Below, piece after piece: positions 5,700 through 15,941 of a DNA stretch of 64,000 nt. The position numbers and the translations under genes were made by a program. Numbering within the stretch: the stretch's first letter is position 1; every line of letters begins with the position of its first letter. Below the pieces are notes generated by a model. The model worked only from the letters and a program-made list of their open reading frames with translations. It was not told the origin of the DNA and did not search any database. The stretch is from Rhodocytophaga rosea (GTDB lineage: Bacteria; Bacteroidota; Bacteroidia; Cytophagales; 172606-1). The stretch lies in the NCBI RefSeq assembly GCF_010119975.1, contig NZ_CP048222.1, positions 6,548,501 to 6,612,500 on the forward strand. The letters run 5' to 3'.

Positions 5700-7049
5700 A
5701 TGCACTGGAAATTATCACATTATCTCATTGTTAGTGATCCTATTATCAATGACCGTTTTCAAATCCTTTATTCAACCAGAACTGCCCAGCGACTTTTGCT
5801 ATCCACTACAGTAGTCGAAAACATTCTAAAGAATAATTTAACGGCTGTCTCTGAAGAAATTATCGCAAAACTGGTTTCCTTCGAAATTCTGGTACCATCA
5901 GAGGAGGATGAACTGAACACGGTTATTAACCGCAATACCACAGCTATAGCCCAGGATGATACTTTATACTATGTAATTCAACCTACTGCCCAATGCCAGT
6001 TAGGCTGTAATTATTGCGGACAAAAACATACCAGTACCTATCTGCAGGAAGAGCTTGATATACGTATTCTGCAACGCATAGAGCAAAAACTGCAAAACCA
6101 GGTTTATACACATCTGGCTATCGGATGGTTTGGGGCAGAACCTTTGCTGGGTGCCAAACAAATTGAAAGATTATCAGCCTCTTTGTATACCCTTGCACAA
6201 ACATATGGTTGTACCTATGGCGCAAAGGTCGTTACCAATGGTTTGAACTTAAAGTTGCCCCTTTTCCGCAAGCTGCTGGAATGCCATATTCAAACCATTG
6301 AAATCACCCTGGATGGTTCTGCGAGGTTTCATGACCAGCGAAGACATACCAAAAGCGGACATAGCACATTCGATATTATTTTTAACAACCTGCAGCGGGT
6401 GCTGGCTCTGGAAGATTTTGAATCCCTGGGCATACAAATAAATATCCGCTGCAATGTAGATGTGAATAATTATGAGGGCGTTCCTGAACTGATAGAATTA
6501 GTAAGCAGCCATAAGTTACTTTCCAGAATCAATAAGTTTTACTTTGCCCCCATTCATGACTGGGGTAATGATGCACATTTGCTCGCACTGAGTAAAGATG
6601 AATTTGCAAAAATGGAAACAGGCTGGCTTATTGCCCTTCATCAAAAAGGCTTTATCCGAAACCAGGTGCCAACCGAGACGCATCCGATTGTGTGTTTGTC
6701 GTTGCAGCGGGAGGCTGAAGTAATTGATGCCAAGGGTAATGTGTATAATTGTACAGAAGTGCCTTACGTGCCTGCGTATGAAAACAGTGAATATTTGATT
6801 GAGAACCTCACCCAACCAGATATAAAAGCGGCTTCACCGAGGTCTTTCAGCCAGTGGAACCAGGAAATCTTAGCGGGCCAGTTTCCTTGTCATGGATGTA
6901 AAATACTGCCTATCTGCGGAGGTGCCTGCCCTAAATCATGGCATGAACAGGTTTCTCCATGCCCTTCCATCAAATTTAATATTAAAGACCGGCTTGTGTT
7001 GGATGCATACGCCGCATTGAAAAAGCCTGCTGCACAACCTGTGCCATAG
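5700..7049 (+). CDS. Radical SAM/SPASM peptide-modifying enzyme
   Basis: 449 residues. The first about 85 residues look like a PqqD-type peptide-binding domain (SHYLIVSD, QILYSTRTAQRLLLS, then a helix and EEIIAKLVSFEILVP). The radical SAM core follows, with C99-x3-C103-x2-C106 for the 4Fe-4S cluster that cleaves S-adenosylmethionine and GWFGAEPLLG as the SAM-binding GGEP-like motif. The C-terminus is a SPASM domain with C332, C351, C397, C400, C406, C410 and C421, which should bind two auxiliary clusters. The layout matches sactipeptide/ranthipeptide maturases and related enzymes that crosslink or epimerise ribosomal peptides. A Cys-rich precursor peptide is encoded 140 bases downstream and is the obvious substrate. 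An anaerobic sulfatase maturase is less likely because no sulfatase is nearby. Confidence 0.9.
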   Translation: MHWKLSHYLIVSDPIINDRFQILYSTRTAQRLLLSTTVVENILKNNLTAVSEEIIAKLVSFEILVPSEEDELNTVINRNTTAIAQDDTLYYVIQPTAQCQLGCNYCGQKHTSTYLQEELDIRILQRIEQKLQNQVYTHLAIGWFGAEPLLGAKQIERLSASLYTLAQTYGCTYGAKVVTNGLNLKLPLFRKLLECHIQTIEITLDGSARFHDQRRHTKSGHSTFDIIFNNLQRVLALEDFESLGIQINIRCNVDVNNYEGVPELIELVSSHKLLSRINKFYFAPIHDWGNDAHLLALSKDEFAKMETGWLIALHQKGFIRNQVPTETHPIVCLSLQREAEVIDAKGNVYNCTEVPYVPAYENSEYLIENLTQPDIKAASPRSFSQWNQEILAGQFPCHGCKILPICGGACPKSWHEQVSPCPSIKFNIKDRLVLDAYAALKKPAAQPVP

Positions 7050-7189
7050 TAGAAGCCGGAAATCTCTTGATCCTATTCCCCTTTCAGGTGCTCATAAACT
7101 GCCTGTAAGCCAACAATATTTTGAGCTCGAAATAAGCGGTCGCCGAAAAGCTTTGATAGAGTAGGCATTCAACCAAAACAAACAAAACA

Positions 7190-7357
7190 ATGAAAACTCA
7201 AGAAGTAAAATCCCAGGAAGTAAACAAAATGGATGAATTGAAAAAAGAACTCGACTTTCTACAGTTAGAAGAACGCCTGGAAATGGTGTATGTAGCTGCT
7301 GCTGCTGCGTGTTGTGGTGGTTGCGGTAATGGTTCTTGCGATAACAAACTTAAATAA
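7190..7357 (+). CDS. Cys/Gly-rich RiPP precursor peptide
   Basis: 55 residues, ATG at 7190, stop at 7355-7357. The first about 34 residues are a charged, helix-prone leader (MKTQEVKSQEVNKMDELKKE, then LDFLQLEERLEMVYV). A run of five Ala (36-40) leads into the core CCGGCGNGSCDNKLK, with Cys 41, 42, 45 and 50. A charged leader, small residues at a cleavage point and a short Cys/Gly core are the hallmarks of ribosomally made, post-translationally modified peptides. It sits between the radical SAM/SPASM gene and an M50 protease gene. A hairpin 14 bases after the stop may raise its transcript level relative to downstream genes. The exact cleavage point and the modification are inference: thioethers on Cys are the first guess and epimerisation the second. 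Confidence 0.85.
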   Translation: MKTQEVKSQEVNKMDELKKELDFLQLEERLEMVYVAAAAACCGGCGNGSCDNKLK

Positions 7358-7370
7358 CAATTATCCAGGT

Positions 7371-7403
7371 AGAGATGTGTTTATTTATCATAAGCACATC
7401 TCT
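7371..7403 (+). terminator. Hairpin after the precursor gene (attenuator or RNA-stabilising)
   Basis: A perfect 9-bp stem, AGAGATGTG (7371-7379) against CACATCTCT (7395-7403), with a 15-base A/T loop and only a short T stretch afterwards. It lies between the precursor stop and the protease start. Such a leaky hairpin would let the peptide be made in excess over its processing enzymes. Confidence 0.55.
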
Positions 7404-7470
7404 TTACCCTTAATGGGTTCATTCTGTCTTTACATACCAGCTTAATTGTCCACAACAAATCTAATTGATT

Positions 7471-8685
7471 ATGTATCCTCTTCCCGGCAAACATATACTA
7501 GACGCTGTGAAACTCATTCATAATGGAGAGCAGTATCTGCTTGTATGTGAAGGAGCTATTTTTTCCACCAGTAAACTGGTGTATGAAATACTCAGCCATC
7601 TGAAAGAGGCGCATTCAATAGAGGTCGTTAGTGCTTATTTGAAGCAGAACTATCAACTTAATGCGGAAGAAGCCAGTCAGCTTTTTCAGGCAAGTATCAT
7701 TCCATTGCTTCAAAAGCTGGAGACTATCGCTGGAAACCAGAAACCTGCTGCTTCATATATATATTTTCGCCGGACCTTATTGCAAGCAAGTACGGTTCAG
7801 GCGGTATCCGGCTTTTTGAAAGTCTTGTTTAATACACCATGGTTTATACTGCTGGGTAGTTTATCCATTCTGTTAAATATGATATATGCCTTTCATTTTA
7901 GCCTGACACTGGCCGCGGTTGATTCTTTTTCCCTTCAGGAATCTTGCTTTTTGTGCGTAATACTCTTGTTGATACTCCTTTTTCATGAAATGGGACATGC
8001 AGCCGCAGCATCCAAACTGGGGGCAGCACCGAAAGAAATCGGATTTGGTTTTTATTTCCTGTTCCCGGTTTTATTTGCTGATGTAAGCGACATATGGTCT
8101 TATCCCAAATACAAGCGTATTCTGGTCAATACCGGAGGAATATACTTTCAATTGCTGGCAAATATTCCGCTGATCCTTGCTTTTTTGTACCTCGAGGATG
8201 ATGCTTCCCGAAGAATGCTATCCTATATTATTACCACAAATCTGCTGGTGATGTTCTATTCCCTGCTTCCTTTCTTACGAAACGACGGCTACTGGATCTA
8301 CAGTGATTTTTTTAACCTGCCGAATCTGATGAACCGTGCAAAAGAATATCCACGTAACCTATACAAAAGTGTGAGGGAGCATTCAGCTAAATCTAAGTAC
8401 CAGGCAAGCAGCATTACTAAAGACCTACCCTTGTTTGTGTTTACAATTGGCAATTATGCTTTTATCCTGTTTGTTCTGTATGCCTTCTGGATGTTACTGT
8501 TTACAACAATTTCAGACCTGCAGGCTTTTCTGTTGAAAGCATCCTCTTCAACGATGGCTTTCCATGAATATGCCAGAATGGGCTTCAGAGTAGCCATAAC
8601 GCTAGGTATACTCATTATTGTGATACGGCAGAAAATAGGGCAATTAAAAAAGCTATACCATTCCTATCTCATTGCTTCAAAATAG
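7471..8685 (+). CDS. M50-type membrane zinc metallopeptidase with N-terminal PqqD-like domain
   Basis: 404 residues from ATG 7471; a TTG two codons upstream is less likely. Residues about 10-85 resemble a PqqD/RiPP-recognition fold (EQYLLVCEGAIFSTSKLVYEIL, then two helices ending in LLQKLE). After a hydrophobic segment comes HEMGH (H172, E173, H176), the zinc site of site-2-type intramembrane proteases, and a downstream NDG (271-273) whose Asp is the usual third ligand. About six hydrophobic segments place it in the inner membrane. M50 enzymes of this kind occur with radical SAM-modified peptides (for example YydH with the YydF epipeptide), where they release the mature peptide from its leader. 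Here it probably cuts the 55-residue precursor. No ABC exporter gene is directly attached. Confidence 0.85.
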   Translation: MYPLPGKHILDAVKLIHNGEQYLLVCEGAIFSTSKLVYEILSHLKEAHSIEVVSAYLKQNYQLNAEEASQLFQASIIPLLQKLETIAGNQKPAASYIYFRRTLLQASTVQAVSGFLKVLFNTPWFILLGSLSILLNMIYAFHFSLTLAAVDSFSLQESCFLCVILLLILLFHEMGHAAAASKLGAAPKEIGFGFYFLFPVLFADVSDIWSYPKYKRILVNTGGIYFQLLANIPLILAFLYLEDDASRRMLSYIITTNLLVMFYSLLPFLRNDGYWIYSDFFNLPNLMNRAKEYPRNLYKSVREHSAKSKYQASSITKDLPLFVFTIGNYAFILFVLYAFWMLLFTTISDLQAFLLKASSSTMAFHEYARMGFRVAITLGILIIVIRQKIGQLKKLYHSYLIASK

Positions 8686-8851
8686 ATTTAACCGTCAACC
8701 TCACTTCATTTTCTTCCCCTAACCGGGCGAATAGTGCCTTTTAAATACCCATAATTCCAAAATTAGTACACACTTAACCGCTCAATATGAATGAGCAGTT
8801 AGTTATCCATTTTCAAATTCAGATTATTCATTCACCTAACACATACAAACC

Positions 8852-10000
8852 ATGAACAGACATACTTATTTGAAAGAAGCGGATAAAATCAGAGCCCATG
8901 CAGATAATGAATGTACAGATCTGCATGAAATTAGCTCTCCGCAGCGCTACCATTTTTTGCAGAGCAAAAGCACCAGAAATATTTTTCTGCCGGATCTGCA
9001 GACAGACGATGACATTTTCTTCCGGGAGCTGATGTTCCATACAGAACTGGCCATTAAAGACCAGGAACTTCCCTATGCCTACGAAAATCTGACAGTAAAA
9101 GGGAATACCTCTTTTTTAGAGGAAAACAAACCTGTTATCTATTGTACCTTTCACCTGGGTTCTTACCGCCTGATCAATTTCTTCCTGTACAAACACAAAA
9201 TCGATTATGCCTTAATGATCAGCCAGAAAACATTTGAAGCTGAAGAGCAACGCATTCATAGTATACACAAGAAGATAGAAGAAAAATATGCGCATTCTAT
9301 TCAATTCAAAGTGCTCAATGCCGAATCAGAAACGGTGGCCATGCAGATGATCAGGGAAGTAAGGAAAGGAAACAGTTTATTATTTTATATTGATGGCAAT
9401 ACCGGTGTAGGAGGCACAGACCGGAAAGACGATAAACTGGTCGCTATTGATTTTCTGGGCCAGACCCTGCTGGCACGCAAAGGAATTGCATTTTTGTCGC
9501 ATTACCTCAATATTCCGGTTATACCGGTTCTTTCCTACCGCAGAACAGTGGCCGAGCCTATCCTGGAATTCTTTGATCCCATTTATCCCACTCCGGAAAC
9601 AGACCGGGAAGCCTATTGTAAACAAACGACCCAGGAGATATGGAATATATTTGCTCGGTATCTGAAAAAATATCCTGAGCAATGGGAGGGATGGTTGTAT
9701 GCCAATCACTTTTTAAGCACTCCCGAACAAGGTACGTCCTATGCTGCTCCCATACCTATCGAAGACAATTCCTATTATACATTTGCCAGGAATAACTACA
9801 GCCTGTTTGCTAACCACCAGGGGCACTATCTGTATCACAACCAGACTACACATTGTATTAAAGTATCGGATTCTCTGTTTAAGTTTCTCAATAAAATTGA
9901 TCAGGATCATATTGATATTGAAGGGAAAAGCCTGAAAGGCTTGATCAGTGAAAGCCTGTTGAACAACCTGATTCAAACCAGTATTTTTGCCAAAGTATAA
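8852..10000 (+). CDS. Lysophospholipid-acyltransferase-like protein with C-terminal PqqD-like domain
   Basis: 382 residues. Residues about 90-295 match the LpxL/HtrB-like acyltransferase layout: VIYCTFHLGSYRLINFF, GNSLLFYIDGNTGVGG, an FLGQTLLARKGIAFLSHYLNIPVIPV segment ahead of YRR, and a PEQWEGWLYANHFL end. The catalytic box reads H101-LGSY-R106, where the family has H-x4-D/E, so the acidic partner is replaced by Arg. No membrane anchor is obvious. Residues about 305-382 form a second small domain (YYTFARNNYSLFANHQGHYL, CIKVSDSLFKFLNKID) that looks PqqD-like and may hold the leader peptide. Placed after the precursor and protease, it may acylate the peptide, or it may have lost acyl transfer and act otherwise. 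The family call is fairly sure and the substrate is inference. Confidence 0.75.
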   Translation: MNRHTYLKEADKIRAHADNECTDLHEISSPQRYHFLQSKSTRNIFLPDLQTDDDIFFRELMFHTELAIKDQELPYAYENLTVKGNTSFLEENKPVIYCTFHLGSYRLINFFLYKHKIDYALMISQKTFEAEEQRIHSIHKKIEEKYAHSIQFKVLNAESETVAMQMIREVRKGNSLLFYIDGNTGVGGTDRKDDKLVAIDFLGQTLLARKGIAFLSHYLNIPVIPVLSYRRTVAEPILEFFDPIYPTPETDREAYCKQTTQEIWNIFARYLKKYPEQWEGWLYANHFLSTPEQGTSYAAPIPIEDNSYYTFARNNYSLFANHQGHYLYHNQTTHCIKVSDSLFKFLNKIDQDHIDIEGKSLKGLISESLLNNLIQTSIFAKV

Positions 10001-10108
10001 GTTAGATCGAAAATTCCTCACCTGTTCATTCTTGTAAAATGAAAGGGCTTCAAGCGCAATTTTAGCAGACTCCCCTGAAGTCACTGATATTTTGGCTTGG
10101 ATCAGGTT

Positions 10109-11282
10109 CTACACTTTTATACCTTCTATCTTCACCCTCTTAACATTATCCTCCATATCCAGATCAATCAGCAGGTGATTGGGATCAATACCAGCACGGG
10201 CAAGCTGTTCTGGCACATGGAGGATGATTATTTGTTTGCCATAATTAATGCGGTGCTTTTGGAGATAGAGTACTTTTGCGGATGATCCGCGTTCTGCACG
10301 AGGCGCATATACTCCGATATCTATCCAGTCATGCATAGGTAGGTTCGTCTCTATACCGATGCTATCGACTGTCACTTTGCGTGTTTCCACTTCCAGGGTT
10401 ACTTGCCAGGTATCCTTTTCAGATTGCTTTGCAACTGCCTGTTTTGTCTCCAGTTCCCAGAAAGTGTTTGCTGCAAAAAGATCATGTACCAGATAGTGCA
10501 GCGAATCTGGCGTTACCGCCTGAATCTCTCTGTACAAATCAAGTGTCGTGGGCAGGGGAAGACTTGCAGCGCTGTATTTGGAAAGCATTTTCCGCAGTGC
10601 CTCATTCACCCGATCTTTGCCAATGTAATTCCTTAGCGCAAATAGCGCAAAAGGCCCCTTGCGGTAATTCATGAACGCATTATTTGCCCGGAGCAATGGA
10701 GGAGCCGCACGGGAACGGGGAATTTCATATTCCTGCCGCATCTGGAACAAATAACGGAGCAAATGCTGATTACCCAGGGTTTTCTCCACTACTTGCATGG
10801 CTGAGTACGTTGCTAGGCTTTCGACAAGTAAACCTGCTCCTTCAACCGAAGCGGGTGCAGGGAAAAGCCCCACCACTGGTACGCTACCTCATGTGCCATA
10901 ATATGGTGGGGGAGGTCAAGCCCATCCGGTTTTGGATTCATCAGTGAATATCCTTCCTGATAATCAATCGTCATAGCCTCAGCATGCATGGCACGGCCAG
11001 GACCGGGGTGCTCCAGAACTCGAAAGTGACTATATGGATAAGAACCAAATTCTTGGTCGCAGTATCGCCAGCAACAACTCCACTGATAATAAGCCATATG
11101 GTACTGCCGAAAATAGTAAAGAAGGCAATGGTGTCAGGTGCATTCAGGTACGTTCCATCTGGAAGGGTAACCATTCTCAGGATTGTAAACCCAAATAGAA
11201 AGAATACAACGAATAGCATCCAGGTAGAAACATAACGCAGCTGATACCTGACCTCAAACCTACATATCTCCTGAAACTTCAT
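10109..11282 (-). pseudogene. Decayed tandem copy of the ABC permease-M1 aminopeptidase gene
   Basis: Three open pieces in different frames line up with the intact neighbour at 11260-14880. 10971-11282 matches only its first about 95 residues (MKFQEICRFEVRYQLRY, then FAIL-type membrane segments). 10813-11097 picks up directly at the aminopeptidase active-site region, and 10109-10876 gives the C-terminal about 250 residues. So roughly 800 internal codons (most of the permease and the front of the peptidase) are deleted and two frameshifts follow. The zinc motif reads HEVAYQWW where the intact copy has HEMGHQWW, so the second His ligand is gone. Its start overlaps the stop of the intact gene by 23 bases, showing it was once the next cistron of the operon. 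Confidence 0.85.
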
Positions 11283-14200
11283 AGCTTATTTCTTCAATGT
11301 TATCGCCTTCTTCCCAGTCGAGCAGGTTGTACGGATCAATTCCGCCACGCGCCGGCTTGTGCGGCAATTGTACGGTGATCGTTTGAGTACCAGAGCGGAT
11401 AAAGTGCTTCTGTACGTAGAGCGGCTTTCCCAGCATTTCGCCTGGCTCCGCAGGAGCGAAGATTCCGATTTCTACCCACTCATTCACCGGCATTTTGGTT
11501 TCTACGCCAGCGCTATCAGTTATAGTCTTATGTGCTTCCACTTCGAAAGTTACTTGCCAGGTACCTGCTGCCGTTTGCTTTGCGGAGGCTTTTTTTGTGT
11601 CAAATTTCCAGAAGGTGTTCTTCTCAAAGAGGTCGCTCAGCAGGGGTTTGAGTGAGTCCGGACTAACCACCTGTAACTCGTGGTATAGGTCGTTTGTCGT
11701 GGCCGGAGCAAATGCTTTTTTCTCTAGTAGGATACGCAGTGCTTTGTTCACCTTAGCCTCACCTACATACTCACTGAGCGCGTGCATAGCATAAGGGCCT
11801 TTTCGGTAGTTGGTCCAGGGGTCCATGGCACGGAGTAGCGGAAGTCCAGTGTGGATAGGTGGCCAAGGGTTCGGTTCCCGCATGAAACTCATGAACCGCC
11901 GTAGCGCTTCCCGGCCCTTTACATTCTTCACGAGCTGCATCGCCGAATACCAGGCGAGGCTTTCAGAGAGTACACCTCCTCCTTCAGCAAAAGCCGGCTT
12001 AAGCTGCCCACCCCACCACTGATGTCCCATCTCGTGCGCCACAATCTCAAATATCGCGTCGAAACCATCGCCTTGTGGATCAAGCAGAAAGAAGCCTTCT
12101 CCGCCGGTAATAACACCACTTCCATCAACGCCCATACCAAAAAAATTGCCGGGTTGCTCAACAATTTGCAGGAATTGAAACGGATAGGGACCAAACTGTG
12201 CTGAATAGTATTCTAAAGACTTTCGTATGCCTCGCAGCAAGCGTTCAAGATGCTGCTTGTGGCCTGGGTAAACAAATACCTGAATATCGACATGTTCCCA
12301 TCTTTCCCGGTGAACCGCGTAATTGGCAGAGAAGAAGACATCCATTCCGCTGATGGGTACGTTGCTGGCATAATGAAAGTAGCTACGATCAGCTTCGCTC
12401 CACGTGCGGCGCAGCTCACCCGGAGCAACTCCTACCTGACCGGCGCTGGTTCCAACAATTGCTTCGAATGTAGCAGGAGCACTCATCGCCAGATGTGGAT
12501 CGATGTCGCCAGGAGGAGGGAGGGTGACCTGCCTTGGCAGGCCGTGCTTGCGACGGTCTTCTGCACTCCACAGTTCGCGCATCGGCTGGTATCCAATAAC
12601 CGGCAGTGCGCTGCCAGTGAAGTAAGTGCCATTTTCTACAATCGCCTGGCCCGCTCCGTTGCTGCGAAGACCCGTGTTTCGAAAACCACGTGGCTCGAAC
12701 TGTACATCAAAGTCCAGTCTCAGTGAGTCTCCAGGCTGGAGTGGCTCTTCCAGTGCATAGATGTGGTGGCCCAGCTTTTCATCAGCTATCACCAGTCTGG
12801 CGGGCCGATCAAACTTTATGCGTGTTTCCACATAGAATGCAGGCTCCAGATGCACAGAATCGATAGGCATATTGCTTCGGTTAACAAGGTGATAGCTTCC
12901 GCGTATCGTTGCTGCACTGCGCTCAGGATAGATCTCAATCTGAAGATTCGTGTGCAAACGCACTGGCTGCGGCTTATCCTCGTATTTCCCGTATTGCTGC
13001 TCATAGTCTGCCCTGTGTTGCACCAGTTCATTATCGGTGATGTACTCGTTCAGTACATTTGTGTTGTAGAAGATGAAACCGCCGAGGCTGAGTATGAGGC
13101 CGACTGTGAGAATGGTGAACACGGCAGTTGAGCGGTTAAAGCGATTCTGTGCAACGTGAAGCCGTATACCGAAACCGGACTCCTTACCCCGCATCCATAG
13201 CAGCTTCGTCAGGAGGGCCAACAGCAGCGCCCATGCTACCCAATAGAGTTTAAACCACAGCCACGGACCAATAGATCCACCGAAGCCACGCATGTCTGTA
13301 AATGACCATGCCGGACCTGCGCTGTAGACGAGAAGGTGATGGTGAATGCCAAGGTATCCCGAGAAAATCATGAGGAGATACACGATTAGGGAGGCTAGCT
13401 GCCCAAGGTATTTTTGGTTCACAAGTACCTGAATTGCAAATGCAAGCATGGCAAAGAGTAGATACTCTGGAAGCTGAAAACCGAACAGGAGCACCATGTA
13501 CTGTGGAATCTTGAAGTCGTAATATCCTTTACTCACCTGAGTAATTATTCCTGCAGCCGTCAGCATTGCCATCAATGCTGCCAGCACAAGGCACAGCCCA
13601 AAGTATTTGCCAAAGAAAAGCACCCACTCGGGTACTGGTGTTGCATCTACGTTTTCATGCAGCTGCGCATCACGTTCACGCCAGAGGAGTTCTCCGGTTA
13701 AAAAAATGATGATCAGTGGCACCATCACCCAATAGTTAAGCGGATCTGTGATCGGGAATGTGAGATACCTTGAGATAATTTCAACCGTTCGTGGCAATAG
13801 CGGTACGCCCCATTGCTGCAACTCGATCTGCATCATCAGGATGAGCATCACCGGGAATGCTACGAGCAGGAACAGTCCGGGCAGGCTTGTTGCGATCATC
13901 CGGAAAGATGACCATGTAATAGCCAGCATTTGCTGCAGATGTGCCTTGAAGTTGAATGACTGACGCGCCATTGGGATAGTCATTCTGATTCGTGCAGCCG
14001 AATCAGAATCGGCTGTTGGTGCTATTCTGTTGAACCGCAGCCGCAGCCTGCTCACCAGATCCGTTGCTGTGCGATGTTCAAAGCGAAAACGCAAATAAAT
14101 AAATGTGAGTATGAGCAGCGAGATACTGATCCATAGAATGCGGTTGAACAGCATAGATCCTTCGAGCGTAAACATGCGGACGTTTTTCTCAACGATTGTC

Positions 14201-14880
14201 CAGTTTGACATCATTTCATTCATGATGGCGAATACACCGATGGGGTCTGTTAACAGAGCAATTTCAGGTTTTGCTAATTTCGATAGCCACAAAAAGAGCG
14301 TTACCGGATAAGAAAGGAAGAATAGGCCGAAACTGCCCACATACGCCGCCATCGGTCGACCGGTCAGCAGCGATGCCGAGAACTGCACCGTTGTGGCGAT
14401 GAGCACGTTTGGCAGCGCAATGAAGCTGTATGCAGCCAGGTAAGCAGCTGGCCGGAACGGACCGACAATATCTGGATTAGCGCCAGGGCCATAAACAGCT
14501 AGAAGGCTCCCTATCTGTACACAGAGAAGGATCAAGGCATGGAGGGTCAGGGCTGCCAGGAACCGCCCGCCCAGATAGATGGCTTTGTTGACTGGGGTGG
14601 TATAGGTAAGCGGATAAATGCTTGTATACACATCCCGTGCCGCTGCTTCGCCTGCGATTGGTGGTGCCAGCAAAAGCCAGATCTGACAGCTGAATACCGT
14701 CACTGTGGTAATAATGAATGGAGAATTCAGAATGAAGTCCTGGGGAAGCGTCACGGGTACTATTGCCACTCTCGTGCTCATCAATGCGAATAAGAGCAGC
14801 CCAGCCATGCAGAGCCACGGCCAGGGACAGCGTATCTGGTAGGCAAACTCAAAGCGAAAAATTTCCCTTAAATTCATCAT
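11260..14880 (-). CDS. ABC-2-type permease fused to M1 family aminopeptidase
   Basis: 1206 residues. Residues 1 to about 590 hold many hydrophobic helices in two ABC-2-like blocks (EIFRFEFAYQIR at the start, then a second set near 330-590). Residues about 640-1200 are a gluzincin peptidase of family M1: HEMGHQWW near 945 binds zinc with HExxH, and the Glu of LSESLAWYSA downstream is the third ligand. This fused family occurs in Bacteroidota beside a dedicated ATPase. It probably exports or processes peptides across the inner membrane, with the peptidase domain outside; the substrate is unknown. Its ATG overlaps the ATPase stop (ATGA), a sign of translational coupling. By eye the GC content is clearly higher than in neighbouring genes, which suggests transfer. 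Confidence 0.9.
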   Translation of the reverse strand: MMNLREIFRFEFAYQIRCPWPWLCMAGLLLFALMSTRVAIVPVTLPQDFILNSPFIITTVTVFSCQIWLLLAPPIAGEAAARDVYTSIYPLTYTTPVNKAIYLGGRFLAALTLHALILLCVQIGSLLAVYGPGANPDIVGPFRPAAYLAAYSFIALPNVLIATTVQFSASLLTGRPMAAYVGSFGLFFLSYPVTLFLWLSKLAKPEIALLTDPIGVFAIMNEMMSNWTIVEKNVRMFTLEGSMLFNRILWISISLLILTFIYLRFRFEHRTATDLVSRLRLRFNRIAPTADSDSAARIRMTIPMARQSFNFKAHLQQMLAITWSSFRMIATSLPGLFLLVAFPVMLILMMQIELQQWGVPLLPRTVEIISRYLTFPITDPLNYWVMVPLIIIFLTGELLWRERDAQLHENVDATPVPEWVLFFGKYFGLCLVLAALMAMLTAAGIITQVSKGYYDFKIPQYMVLLFGFQLPEYLLFAMLAFAIQVLVNQKYLGQLASLIVYLLMIFSGYLGIHHHLLVYSAGPAWSFTDMRGFGGSIGPWLWFKLYWVAWALLLALLTKLLWMRGKESGFGIRLHVAQNRFNRSTAVFTILTVGLILSLGGFIFYNTNVLNEYITDNELVQHRADYEQQYGKYEDKPQPVRLHTNLQIEIYPERSAATIRGSYHLVNRSNMPIDSVHLEPAFYVETRIKFDRPARLVIADEKLGHHIYALEEPLQPGDSLRLDFDVQFEPRGFRNTGLRSNGAGQAIVENGTYFTGSALPVIGYQPMRELWSAEDRRKHGLPRQVTLPPPGDIDPHLAMSAPATFEAIVGTSAGQVGVAPGELRRTWSEADRSYFHYASNVPISGMDVFFSANYAVHRERWEHVDIQVFVYPGHKQHLERLLRGIRKSLEYYSAQFGPYPFQFLQIVEQPGNFFGMGVDGSGVITGGEGFFLLDPQGDGFDAIFEIVAHEMGHQWWGGQLKPAFAEGGGVLSESLAWYSAMQLVKNVKGREALRRFMSFMREPNPWPPIHTGLPLLRAMDPWTNYRKGPYAMHALSEYVGEAKVNKALRILLEKKAFAPATTNDLYHELQVVSPDSLKPLLSDLFEKNTFWKFDTKKASAKQTAAGTWQVTFEVEAHKTITDSAGVETKMPVNEWVEIGIFAPAEPGEMLGKPLYVQKHFIRSGTQTITVQLPHKPARGGIDPYNLLDWEEGDNIEEISYEVSGDM

Positions 14881-15770
14881 GCGACCGCTGTTTTCCGGTT
14901 TCCAATATGGCCTGCCATGGTACTGAAGTAAACATCTTCCAGGTCAGGCTGCACCAGGTCAAAATCACCGGGTACTTCTTCGCTGTATACATGCACGACT
15001 GTGCGTCCGCTCAGCAGTTTGGTAGAAATGATCGTATACTCATGCTCCATCTGGGGTAAAGCACTTTTCTCTATAATTTTCTGCCAGATCTTCCCTTTCA
15101 GCCTCTGCATTGCCTTCAATGGTTCAACCTCGTGCAAGATCTCGCCTTTGTTGATGATGGCCATCCGCGTGCAGAGCTCACTTACATCTTCTACAATATG
15201 GGTGGAAAGGATTACAACACTGTTCTCGCCCAGTTCACTTAATAGATTCAGAAAGCGTACACGCTCAGCAGGATCAAGACCGGCCGTTGGTTCATCCACA
15301 ATCATTAGTTTTGGATTTCCCAGCAATGCTACTGCGACACCGAATCGCTGACGCATACCACCGGAATATCCTCCCAGCTTTTGTTTGCGTACATCCCAAA
15401 GATTGGTTTGACGGAGGAGCGCCTCAACAACTTCCTTACGTGCGCTGCGTGAGATAATTCCCTTGAGTATGGCGAAATGATCTAAAAGATTTTCGGCACT
15501 CACTTTCGGATAGACACCGAATTCCTGTGGCAGATAGCCCAGTGTTTTGCGTACCTCCTCTTTCTGTTTTACTACATCTATTGTATCGAGATGGACTTCG
15601 CCCTGATCAGGTTCCTGTAAGGTAGCAAGTATGCGCATCAATGTGGATTTACCAGCTCCATTAGGCCCCAGAAGGCCATACATGCCATTGGGAATAAAGA
15701 GCGATACGTTTTTTAGTGCCTGAACACCATTAGGATAGGTTTTTGAGAGATTAGTAATTTGTAGTTTCAT
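14877..15770 (-). CDS. ABC transporter ATP-binding protein
   Basis: 297 residues from the ATG at 15770 (MKLQITNLSKTYPNG). ATGs at 15791 and 15890 are in frame but would put non-family residues ahead of the first strand. Walker A is GPNGAGKST, the Q-loop lies in YLPQEFGVYP, the ABC signature is YSGGMRQRFGVA, Walker B is LMIVDEPTAGLDP and the switch His is in STHIVED. A C-terminal extension of about 80 residues is typical of ATPases paired with ABC-2 permeases. It energises the permease-peptidase encoded immediately downstream with a 4-base overlap. A 17-bp palindrome at 15832-15848 lies about 60 bases before the start and is a likely operator. Confidence 0.93.
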   Translation of the reverse strand: MKLQITNLSKTYPNGVQALKNVSLFIPNGMYGLLGPNGAGKSTLMRILATLQEPDQGEVHLDTIDVVKQKEEVRKTLGYLPQEFGVYPKVSAENLLDHFAILKGIISRSARKEVVEALLRQTNLWDVRKQKLGGYSGGMRQRFGVAVALLGNPKLMIVDEPTAGLDPAERVRFLNLLSELGENSVVILSTHIVEDVSELCTRMAIINKGEILHEVEPLKAMQRLKGKIWQKIIEKSALPQMEHEYTIISTKLLSGRTVVHVYSEEVPGDFDLVQPDLEDVYFSTMAGHIGNRKTAVA

Positions 15771-15831
15771 TTGCGCGGCATTAGTAAGCATAGCTCTGGT
15801 GTTATGAACTTTATTTGTTTTGATTGAAAGA

Positions 15832-15848
15832 ACTTTGAAATTCAAAGT
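15832..15848 (-). promoter_or_regulatory. 17-bp palindrome, probable operator of the ABC operon
   Basis: ACTTTGAAATTCAAAGT is a perfect inverted repeat around a central base. On the minus strand it overlaps TTACTTTG, a 7-of-8 match to the TAnnTTTG -7 box, about 60 bases upstream of the ATPase start. A near-identical copy sits at 17567-17583 in the same relation to a -7 box. Confidence 0.6.
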
Positions 15849-15941
15849 AATTATGTAAAAAGATAGGCTAATTCTACTGTCCTCTGGCATCGGTAATGAA
15901 TGCCAAAAAAAGCGAATACCCTTTCTTATAGCTCTGTTTCT

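Follow-up and report, generated by a model that had tools for sequence, protein, structure and literature searches.

Introduction

Daptides, epipeptides and ranthipeptides are ribosomally synthesized and post-translationally modified peptides (RiPPs) whose gene sets overlap in part with a four-gene locus of Rhodocytophaga rosea, which lies on the plus strand at positions 5700-10000 of the window, the 64,000-nucleotide stretch of DNA analysed here (contig positions 6548501-6612500; the single contig is 8.98 Mb long). The locus encodes a radical S-adenosylmethionine (SAM)/SPASM enzyme, a precursor peptide, an M50 membrane protease and an acyltransferase. The daptide set includes a methyltransferase; YydG of the epipeptide set has, to our knowledge, no SPASM domain, and we know of neither an acyltransferase nor an M50 protease in ranthipeptide systems. 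Few routes for the attachment of lipids to ribosomal peptides are known to us, and none of them uses an enzyme of the LpxL/PatA fold; selidamides, lipolanthines and nostolysamides use GNAT-type enzymes.

Based on sequences and predicted models, we consider it probable that the product of the locus is a RiPP with a lipid and, probably, a thioether bridge, the precursor of which would be crosslinked under the guidance of its leader, acylated at or beside a cysteine and cleaved by the M50 enzyme. That the locus is a RiPP pathway is very likely. The sequences and models show the genes, their conservation as a set, the common leader motif, the invariant Cys and the modelled folds and motifs. How the leader is bound, which bonds form, where the acyl group goes, in what order the steps run, how the product leaves the cell and what it does are inferred.

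Comparison with described pathways

In daptides a RiPP recognition element (RRE) is fused N-terminally to an intramembrane site-2 protease, as the predicted model suggests for this locus; several short precursors are likewise present, and the leader motif ELExMEAP resembles the ELEERLEM of this family (PMC10036551). However, the window peptide has neither ELExMEAP nor a C-terminal Thr (its last residue is Lys), the daptide protease model NF041824 reaches 104.5 bits under a cut-off of 300, and where daptides are described with an oxidative decarboxylase and an aminotransferase (PMC10036551), this locus has a radical SAM enzyme and an acyltransferase. Epipeptide sets of the YydFGH/LiaK type share the precursor, radical SAM enzyme and M50 protease, but the window enzyme has a SPASM domain, the locus has an acyltransferase, and the YydH/LiaK model NF058609 gives 52.4 bits under a cut-off of 225. 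A sequence-only reading made earlier had named YydFGH as the nearest parallel; the three shared gene kinds hold, while the nearest known protease is, by its sequence score, that of the daptides.

Among NCBIfam models, TIGR04463 ('rSAM vs C-rich' maturases) fits the radical SAM enzyme best; it matches over nearly the full length with 211.5 bits and does not reach the equivalog cut-off of 525; 37 of the 74 enzymes in our tree have C39 transporters instead. Nothing on TIGR04463 was found in the open-access literature. Ranthipeptides (PapB) also involve a radical SAM/SPASM enzyme and a Cys-x3-Asp/Glu pattern (PMC9413430) that most of the related peptides share, but the PapB model gives 70.3 bits against a cut-off of 340. 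LpxM/LpxL and PatA have the fold (Z 20) and the His with a later acid in common with the acyltransferase, which differs from them in the absent acid of the HX4D/E motif, an extra C-terminal RRE-like domain and neighbouring peptide genes. The combination of a ribosomal peptide with an acyltransferase recalls selidamides, lipolanthines and nostolysamides, with the LpxL/PatA fold as the difference. A Cys-linked lipid on a RiPP is described for DAG-RiPPs, in which it is attached through Lgt, LspA and Lnt together with MNIO enzymes (PMC12636315).

By these tests the locus is not a member of the daptides, the epipeptides, the PapB-type ranthipeptides or the TIGR04463 equivalogs, and it would work like a mixture of them. 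No RiPP class with an LpxL/PatA-type acyltransferase was found in the open-access literature and two family libraries (subscription papers were outside the scope), in agreement with the earlier statement that a radical SAM/SPASM enzyme with an LpxL-type acyltransferase matches no described class. The kind of pathway is known; this particular set we did not find described.

Conservation of the gene set and its precursor

All four open reading frames (ORFs) are uninterrupted (Table 1). The radical SAM enzyme is present at E 1e-30 or better in six of 395 genomes of the phylum, the window's included, and one of these (G024) has the same four kinds of gene in a different order with three precursor copies. 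A scan of genome contigs with five aligned radical SAM enzymes yielded 359 relatives, and the 80 that scored best were retained. According to profiles of both proteins, 10 of the 80 loci have the M50 protease and the acyltransferase next to the radical SAM gene; they belong to Tenacibaculum, Arcticiflavibacter, a Flavobacteriaceae metagenome-assembled genome, Chryseobacterium, two Edaphocola, Marinifilum, Roseateles, Pelomonas and Paucibacter; the full sets span Bacteroidota and Sphaerotilaceae. Each of the 10 has one to six peptides in which an ELEERLEMV-like leader motif (QLEERLEMV in the window) stands ahead of a Cys. The sequence-only reading had proposed the four plus-strand genes as a complete set for a modified peptide, and this is supported: the genes are intact where it placed them, the set recurs, and no full-set locus in the neighbourhood scan lacks the short Cys gene, the outcome that it had itself named as damaging. 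Five further kept loci (L059, L066, L099, L105, L107) have only the M50 gene beside the radical SAM gene, and G392, outside the order, combines a divergent radical SAM gene with a LEERLELA peptide, the acyltransferase and M50.

A hidden Markov model built from 19 peptides of other loci, with the window's own left out, matched a single one of the 705 ORFs of the window at a threshold of E 0.05. This was the precursor ORF at 7190-7357, with E 2.3e-12, and it is therefore not a chance short ORF. Among 12386 short ORFs of other loci the strong matches fell in acyltransferase loci; most of them are training peptides or near-copies, which match by construction, but L075 was outside the training set and matched at E 8e-15, and weaker matches (E 6e-9 to 4e-3) were found in L041, L046, L099, L105 and L107. 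The precursor is present once in the window's genome.

Only R29 and E31 of the leader and C42 of the core (window numbering) are invariant across 16 aligned precursors, and the cores vary. The earlier description of the peptide as Cys/Gly-rich fits the window; what stays constant across its relatives is the leader motif and one Cys. The window peptide contains VAAAAAC, which could be taken for a lipobox and would place the peptide in the normal lipoprotein pathway (Lgt/LspA), as in the DAG-RiPPs reported for Bacteroidota-type MNIO clusters (PMC12636315). The stretch before VAAAAAC is acidic and short, however, and the NTVC, DNGC, DNYC and NFIC with which relatives lead up to the Cys do not look like lipoboxes by eye, which makes this explanation very unlikely.

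The tree of radical SAM enzymes has 74 rows, consisting of the window and 73 of the 80 kept loci; seven under 250 bits were left out, and L038-L041 also lie outside it (L038 duplicates L069, and L039 duplicates L088). Besides the 37 rows with C39 transporters, counted within 5 kb, there are 21 with none, 5 with M50 only and 11 with both M50 and acyltransferase. The window enzyme and nine of the other ten full-set enzymes form one clade with support 100/97; the Marinifilum enzyme falls outside it on a long branch.

A sister group (L107:6781-13256, L041:7453-13932, L059, L066, L099) combines the radical SAM enzyme and an RRE-type M50 protease with a protein of 662-704 aa that is squalene-hopene-cyclase-like (Pfam in L107). 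A P450-like gene occurs in L107 (Pfam) and L041 (by eye), and the precursors of both have ICW at or near the end.

The radical SAM/SPASM enzyme

The enzyme matches Radical_SAM PF04055 with 35.1 bits (cut-off 29.5), and the models that follow TIGR04463 are CefB (139.7 bits), Clo7bot (139.1) and geopeptide (137.8). Since anaerobic sulfatase maturases belong to the SPASM family and their model TIGR03942 gives 62.7 bits, a sulfatase maturase or another non-RiPP enzyme was considered. Its cut-off, however, is 349.45, the RiPP maturase models score much higher, the peptide is co-conserved, and a scan of nine neighbouring proteins of the window gave no sulfatase match, with three of the nine matching no family at all. 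The scores and neighbours led us to reject this candidate, to which we give practically no weight; a grouping with sulfatase maturases beside sulfatases, which the earlier reading had named as fatal to a RiPP, did not appear.

The enzyme would join a Cys sulfur to a nearby residue, most likely a side-chain carbon of Asp, Glu or Asn, as in ranthipeptides, and we moderately favour a thioether as its product. The core pattern C-x3-[D/E] is present in 17 of 22 precursors, where 5.4 (standard deviation 1.9) would be expected and none of 2000 shuffles reached 17. The 22 come from loci with radical SAM, M50 and acyltransferase genes (L088, a near-copy of L078, was left out) and include 20 distinct cores from 10 loci; because many are near-copies, the counts are not independent.

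Putative leader-binding domains of the protease and the acyltransferase

The protease scores 22.2 bits with Peptidase_M50 PF02163, under the cut-off of 27.2. All 16 aligned proteases nevertheless keep HExxH and, in the second motif, D-x-Y-W without change, and the core of its model (pLDDT 85.4) matches SpoIVFB (Z 10.5) and RseP (Z 10.1). Participation of M50 enzymes in the release of epipeptides and pearlins has been described (PMC10885120). Residues 2-84 of the model match lasso B1 proteins bound to leader peptides (Z 8.6-8.7, root-mean-square deviation (rmsd) 2.2-2.5), PqqD (Z 7.2) and 5why, an entry for a sactipeptide maturase (Z 7.3); DNA-binding winged helices match them less well (Z 5.4). 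The N-terminus of the protease thus appears, in the predicted model, to be a leader-binding, RRE-like domain.

Lip_A_acyltrans PF03279 recognises the acyltransferase with 27.5 bits (cut-off 22.3). Its model (pLDDT 85.5) matches LpxM over 240 residues (Z 20.4, rmsd 3.1) and PatA over 232 residues (Z 20.0, rmsd 3.2); the profile of the whole protein found only weak, unrelated matches among PDB sequences. The acid of HX4D/E is missing in all 43 distinct family ORFs and in 12 of 12 more, L060 reading HLGPLI. PatA uses His126 and Glu200, and PatA with the HX4D Asp changed to Ala keeps 37% activity (PMC4792965). His101 and Asp181, which would take the roles of the PatA pair, are invariant (Table 1), so that the acyltransferase is probably active.

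Residues 292-382 of the acyltransferase form an extra domain, with beta strands followed by three helices in the model, that is found in 18 of 18 aligned sequences. Its profile matches the radical SAM N-termini (values in Table 1), where three control pairs gave probabilities of 0.1-0.5%, and its model matches ThcOx 100-200, which we take to be an RRE, over 89 residues (Z 6.4, rmsd 3.1). No RRE was among the 50 Foldseek matches listed for the acyltransferase; the ThcOx match came up only in a second structure comparison. Profiles and model together suggest that this C-terminus, too, appears to be a leader-binding domain, and the N-terminus of the radical SAM enzyme may carry another.

The acyltransferase and cysteine peptides in other loci

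Within the order, acyltransferase relatives at E 1e-15 or better occur in 40 of 390 genomes including the window's (43 matches). All 42 matches outside the window were opened, and a Cys peptide is present in the cluster of 33. In 27 of these, all belonging to family f4, possibly Spirosomaceae, a CC or SC peptide starting with MKKxF or a close variant lies directly upstream of the acyltransferase; an alignment of 22 different f4 peptides showed an invariant second Cys and a Cys at the first position in 19. M50 was not found around the 27 f4 loci, in stretches of 4 kb for all and about 18 kb for 13. Five more matches have leader-motif Cys peptides. The clusters of G583 and G634 also contain M50; the second locus of G708 has M50, with the peptides about 12 kb from the acyltransferase; G693 (L172) likewise has M50; and G736 (L181) has one leader-motif peptide 7.5 kb away, with no M50 in the stretch. 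G614 (L174, 3828-12733) encodes a divergent radical SAM enzyme, the RRE-acyltransferase, a UPF0489 protein, a JmjC-type protein and two near-identical Cys peptides of 68-69 aa with RRPRGCNAESST, which differ in kind from the leader-motif peptides. For the distant LpxL-like L143-L145, the listed ORFs in the roughly 350 bases upstream include no such peptide.

Family f4 (L009-L011, L013-L036) consists of two-gene units of a peptide and an RRE-acyltransferase. The unit of L045 is flanked by RNase E/G and LytTR genes, and ORFs matching these two in length flank several other f4 units.

An arginase-family protein was found by profile in four loci (L131, G583, G708 and G1048) and in none of the other loci searched. 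G1048, outside the order, has the acyltransferase beside the arginase gene and a peptide with AVRCNNRC that lacks the leader motif. All four arginase loci have an Arg at one of the two positions that precede the Cys, as does one of 14 loci without an arginase match. These 14 are the precursor loci outside the f4 pairs, with Edaphocola counted once: the window, L058, L060, L064, L065, L067, L074, L075, L078, L147, L148, L172, L174 and L181. The count used three of nine L158 peptides and two of five L159 peptides, the remaining ones also having Arg directly before Cys. The sole exception among the 14 is L174 (RGC), which has the UPF0489 protein, presumably arginase-like; the f4 pair L033 reads PRCC although its 4 kb stretch contains no arginase, so that the rule is not a strict one. 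From this pattern we take it that the Arg before the Cys becomes ornithine and that the enzymes would act around the Cys.

Within the same RiPP pathway, the acyl group might sit on the new N-terminus, or on Orn or Lys, after leader cleavage, with the Cys kept for crosslinking or metal binding. N-acylated lipidated RiPPs are described as a growing group (PMC12636315), and the arginase-bearing relatives would place ornithine next to the Cys. On the other side, the RRE-like domain of the acyltransferase suggests action with the leader attached, before a new N-terminus exists, and the 27 f4 loci with CC or SC peptides keep the Cys although M50 was not found in the stretches fetched. We regard this placement as a serious but less likely alternative, and give even chances to the acyl group being on the Cys itself.

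The RRE-acyltransferase also occurs with two ketosynthase genes and reductase and dehydratase-like genes in L046 and L158 (G583), in L055, L149 and L159 (G708), and in L170 and L171. The clusters of G583 and G708 further contain AMP-ligase, arginase and M50 genes and 9 or 5 precursors with the RC motif; G583 has genes for an acyl carrier protein (ACP)-like protein and a phosphopantetheinyl transferase, and G708 has a LanB-like gene. These clusters possibly make polyene or special fatty acyl RiPPs. The arginases L158:13763-15004 and L159:6999-8243 have about 110 extra N-terminal residues, possibly another RRE; that of L158 has a weak winged-helix match (HTH_45, E 6.6e-4). In L148 (G634, 7704-13078), grasp-with-spasm genes (TIGR04193 128 bits and TIGR04192 202 bits, both under cut-off) adjoin the RRE-acyltransferase, M50 and two precursors ending in VISCCLDG, with the flexirubin ligase FlxY nearby.

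Proposed pathway and competing explanations

In the pathway that we propose, the precursor would be made with its LEERLEMV-containing leader, which would be recognised by the RRE-like domains at the N-terminus of the protease, at the C-terminus of the acyltransferase and probably at the N-terminus of the radical SAM enzyme. After the crosslinking described above, the acyltransferase (His101-Asp181, compare His126-Glu200 of PatA) would use acyl-CoA or acyl-ACP as donor and place a fatty acyl group on the core, with the invariant Cys or an amine beside it as the most likely site, and the M50 enzyme would remove the leader in the membrane. We consider acylation of the peptide itself likely.

In another explanation the RiPP is crosslinked but the acyltransferase is a mere neighbour that acts on a lipid or sugar, perhaps to protect the producer. 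LpxL and PatA act on glycolipids and the Pfam label is that of a lipid A acyltransferase; moreover, the seven relatives of family f57 (L173, L175-L180) have the same domains, including the C-terminal one, with no peptide found beside the acyltransferase, which has a DUF2807 gene on one side and a signalling gene on the other (by Pfam only in L175). The C-terminal RRE-like domain and the Cys peptides in 33 of the 42 matches, including two-gene peptide-acyltransferase units, speak against it, and we find this explanation improbable.

Several observations weigh against peptide acylation at the Cys, or against parts of the proposed pathway. Known enzymes of the LpxL/PatA type acylate glycolipid hydroxyls, and a glycolipid hydroxyl is also the site described for PatA (PMC4792965). 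Nine of the 42 acyltransferase matches have no Cys peptide in the fetched stretch; they are all seven of f57 and the two in the ketosynthase clusters L170 and L171, for which the stretch may be too short. The link between acyltransferase and peptide is therefore strong but not universal; the idea that the acyltransferase always accompanies a Cys peptide was dropped, and the earlier designation as an acyltransferase-like protein is upheld in its fold and refined by the extra RRE-like domain and by an association with Cys peptides that holds mostly, not always. The acyltransferase is absent from 63 of the 74 tree rows, so that the whole set marks a subgroup. The window core is one of five without C-x3-[D/E] and has C-x4-N. 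The peptides of Roseateles, Pelomonas and Paucibacter (Sphaerotilaceae) have a single Cys, whose sulfur could not be part of a thioether and carry an S-acyl group at once. As to leader binding, the ThcOx match at Z 6.4 is in a range explicable by a common winged-helix arrangement, the profile of the C-terminal domain found no RRE match among PDB sequences, and sequence profiles did not connect the N-terminus of the M50 protease to either of the other domains (probability 4.6% and 0.4%). A dedicated exporter is not among the genes of the set.

For the wider family, we lean very slightly towards the view that an LpxL/PatA-type acyltransferase gained a leader-binding domain and became a dedicated RiPP lipid transferase acting at or next to the invariant Cys. 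It would define a superclass of lipidated RiPPs in Bacteroidota and some Pseudomonadota. The core would consist of the Cys precursor and the acyltransferase, often joined by an RRE-site-2 protease, and the exchangeable partners would be radical SAM/SPASM enzymes, grasp-with-SPASM genes, peptide arginases or ketosynthase/ACP/AMP-ligase/LanB clusters; the last of these may provide the acyl chain, in the form of a polyene or a special fatty acid. Judging from the loci, Bacteroidota and Burkholderiales-type bacteria would make a family of short Cys lipopeptides, a part of them containing ornithine, and a leader-guided acyltransferase with such different partners would be a portable tool for genetically encoded lipopeptides.

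Coordinates and neighbouring genes

Table 1. Features of the four-gene locus, in window positions
Feature	Position	Strand	Basis
Radical SAM/SPASM peptide maturase, 449 aa	5700..7049	+	Relative of NCBIfam TIGR04463
N-terminal part of radical SAM enzyme	5700..5939	+	Matches the C-terminal domain of the acyltransferase by profile (P 2e-6, probability 89.5%)
Radical SAM cluster motif C99-x3-C103-x2-C106	5994..6017	+	Invariant in 5/5 aligned
SPASM domain, Cys 332, 351, 397, 400, 406, 410, 421	6693..6962	+	TIGR04085 42.8 bits (cut-off 27); 7 Cys invariant in 5/5
Precursor peptide, 55 aa	7190..7357	+	ORF; peptide profile with window left out
Leader motif LEERLEMV	7265..7288	+	R29, E31 invariant in 16/16 aligned precursors
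Putative core CCGGCGNGSCDNKLK, C-terminal part of the peptide; C42 is the invariant Cys	7310..7354	+	Alignment of 16 precursors
M50 (site-2) membrane protease, 404 aa, RRE-like domain at the N-terminus	7471..8685	+	From ATG 7471 (TTG at 7465)
Protease N-terminal RRE-like domain, residues 2-84	7474..7722	+	Predicted model against RRE structures
HEMGH zinc-binding motif	7984..7998	+	H172, E173, H176 invariant in 16/16
LpxL/PatA-fold acyltransferase with C-terminal RRE-like domain, 382 aa	8852..10000	+	Pfam and model
Putative catalytic His101	9152..9154	+	Invariant in 11/11; His motif in 43 distinct family ORFs and 12 more
Asp181, putative charge-relay acid	9392..9394	+	Invariant in 11/11
Acyltransferase C-terminal RRE-like domain, residues 292-382	9725..9997	+	Alignment, profile and model

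In a second genome of the same genus, no match was found for the radical SAM enzyme at E 1e-20, for the acyltransferase at E 1e-15 or for the peptide at E 1. The flanking glycoside hydrolase had no match in three genomes; an empty site was not demonstrable, and this proves nothing by itself. The ABC transporter/M1 peptidase genes at 11260-15890 were set aside as members of the set because they lie on the minus strand and their 1206-aa family is multi-copy in relatives, with 9 matching stretches in G004; no search for a link in homologous loci was made. The minus-strand stretch at 10109-11097 resembles, by eye in translation, a broken partial copy of the ABC-2/M1-peptidase gene at 11260-14880. 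A search with the beta-barrel proteins of L078 and L131 found no counterpart in the window. In L067, L078, L131 and L159 a TonB-type or outer membrane beta-barrel protein adjoins the set, which hints at traffic through the outer membrane in these relatives.

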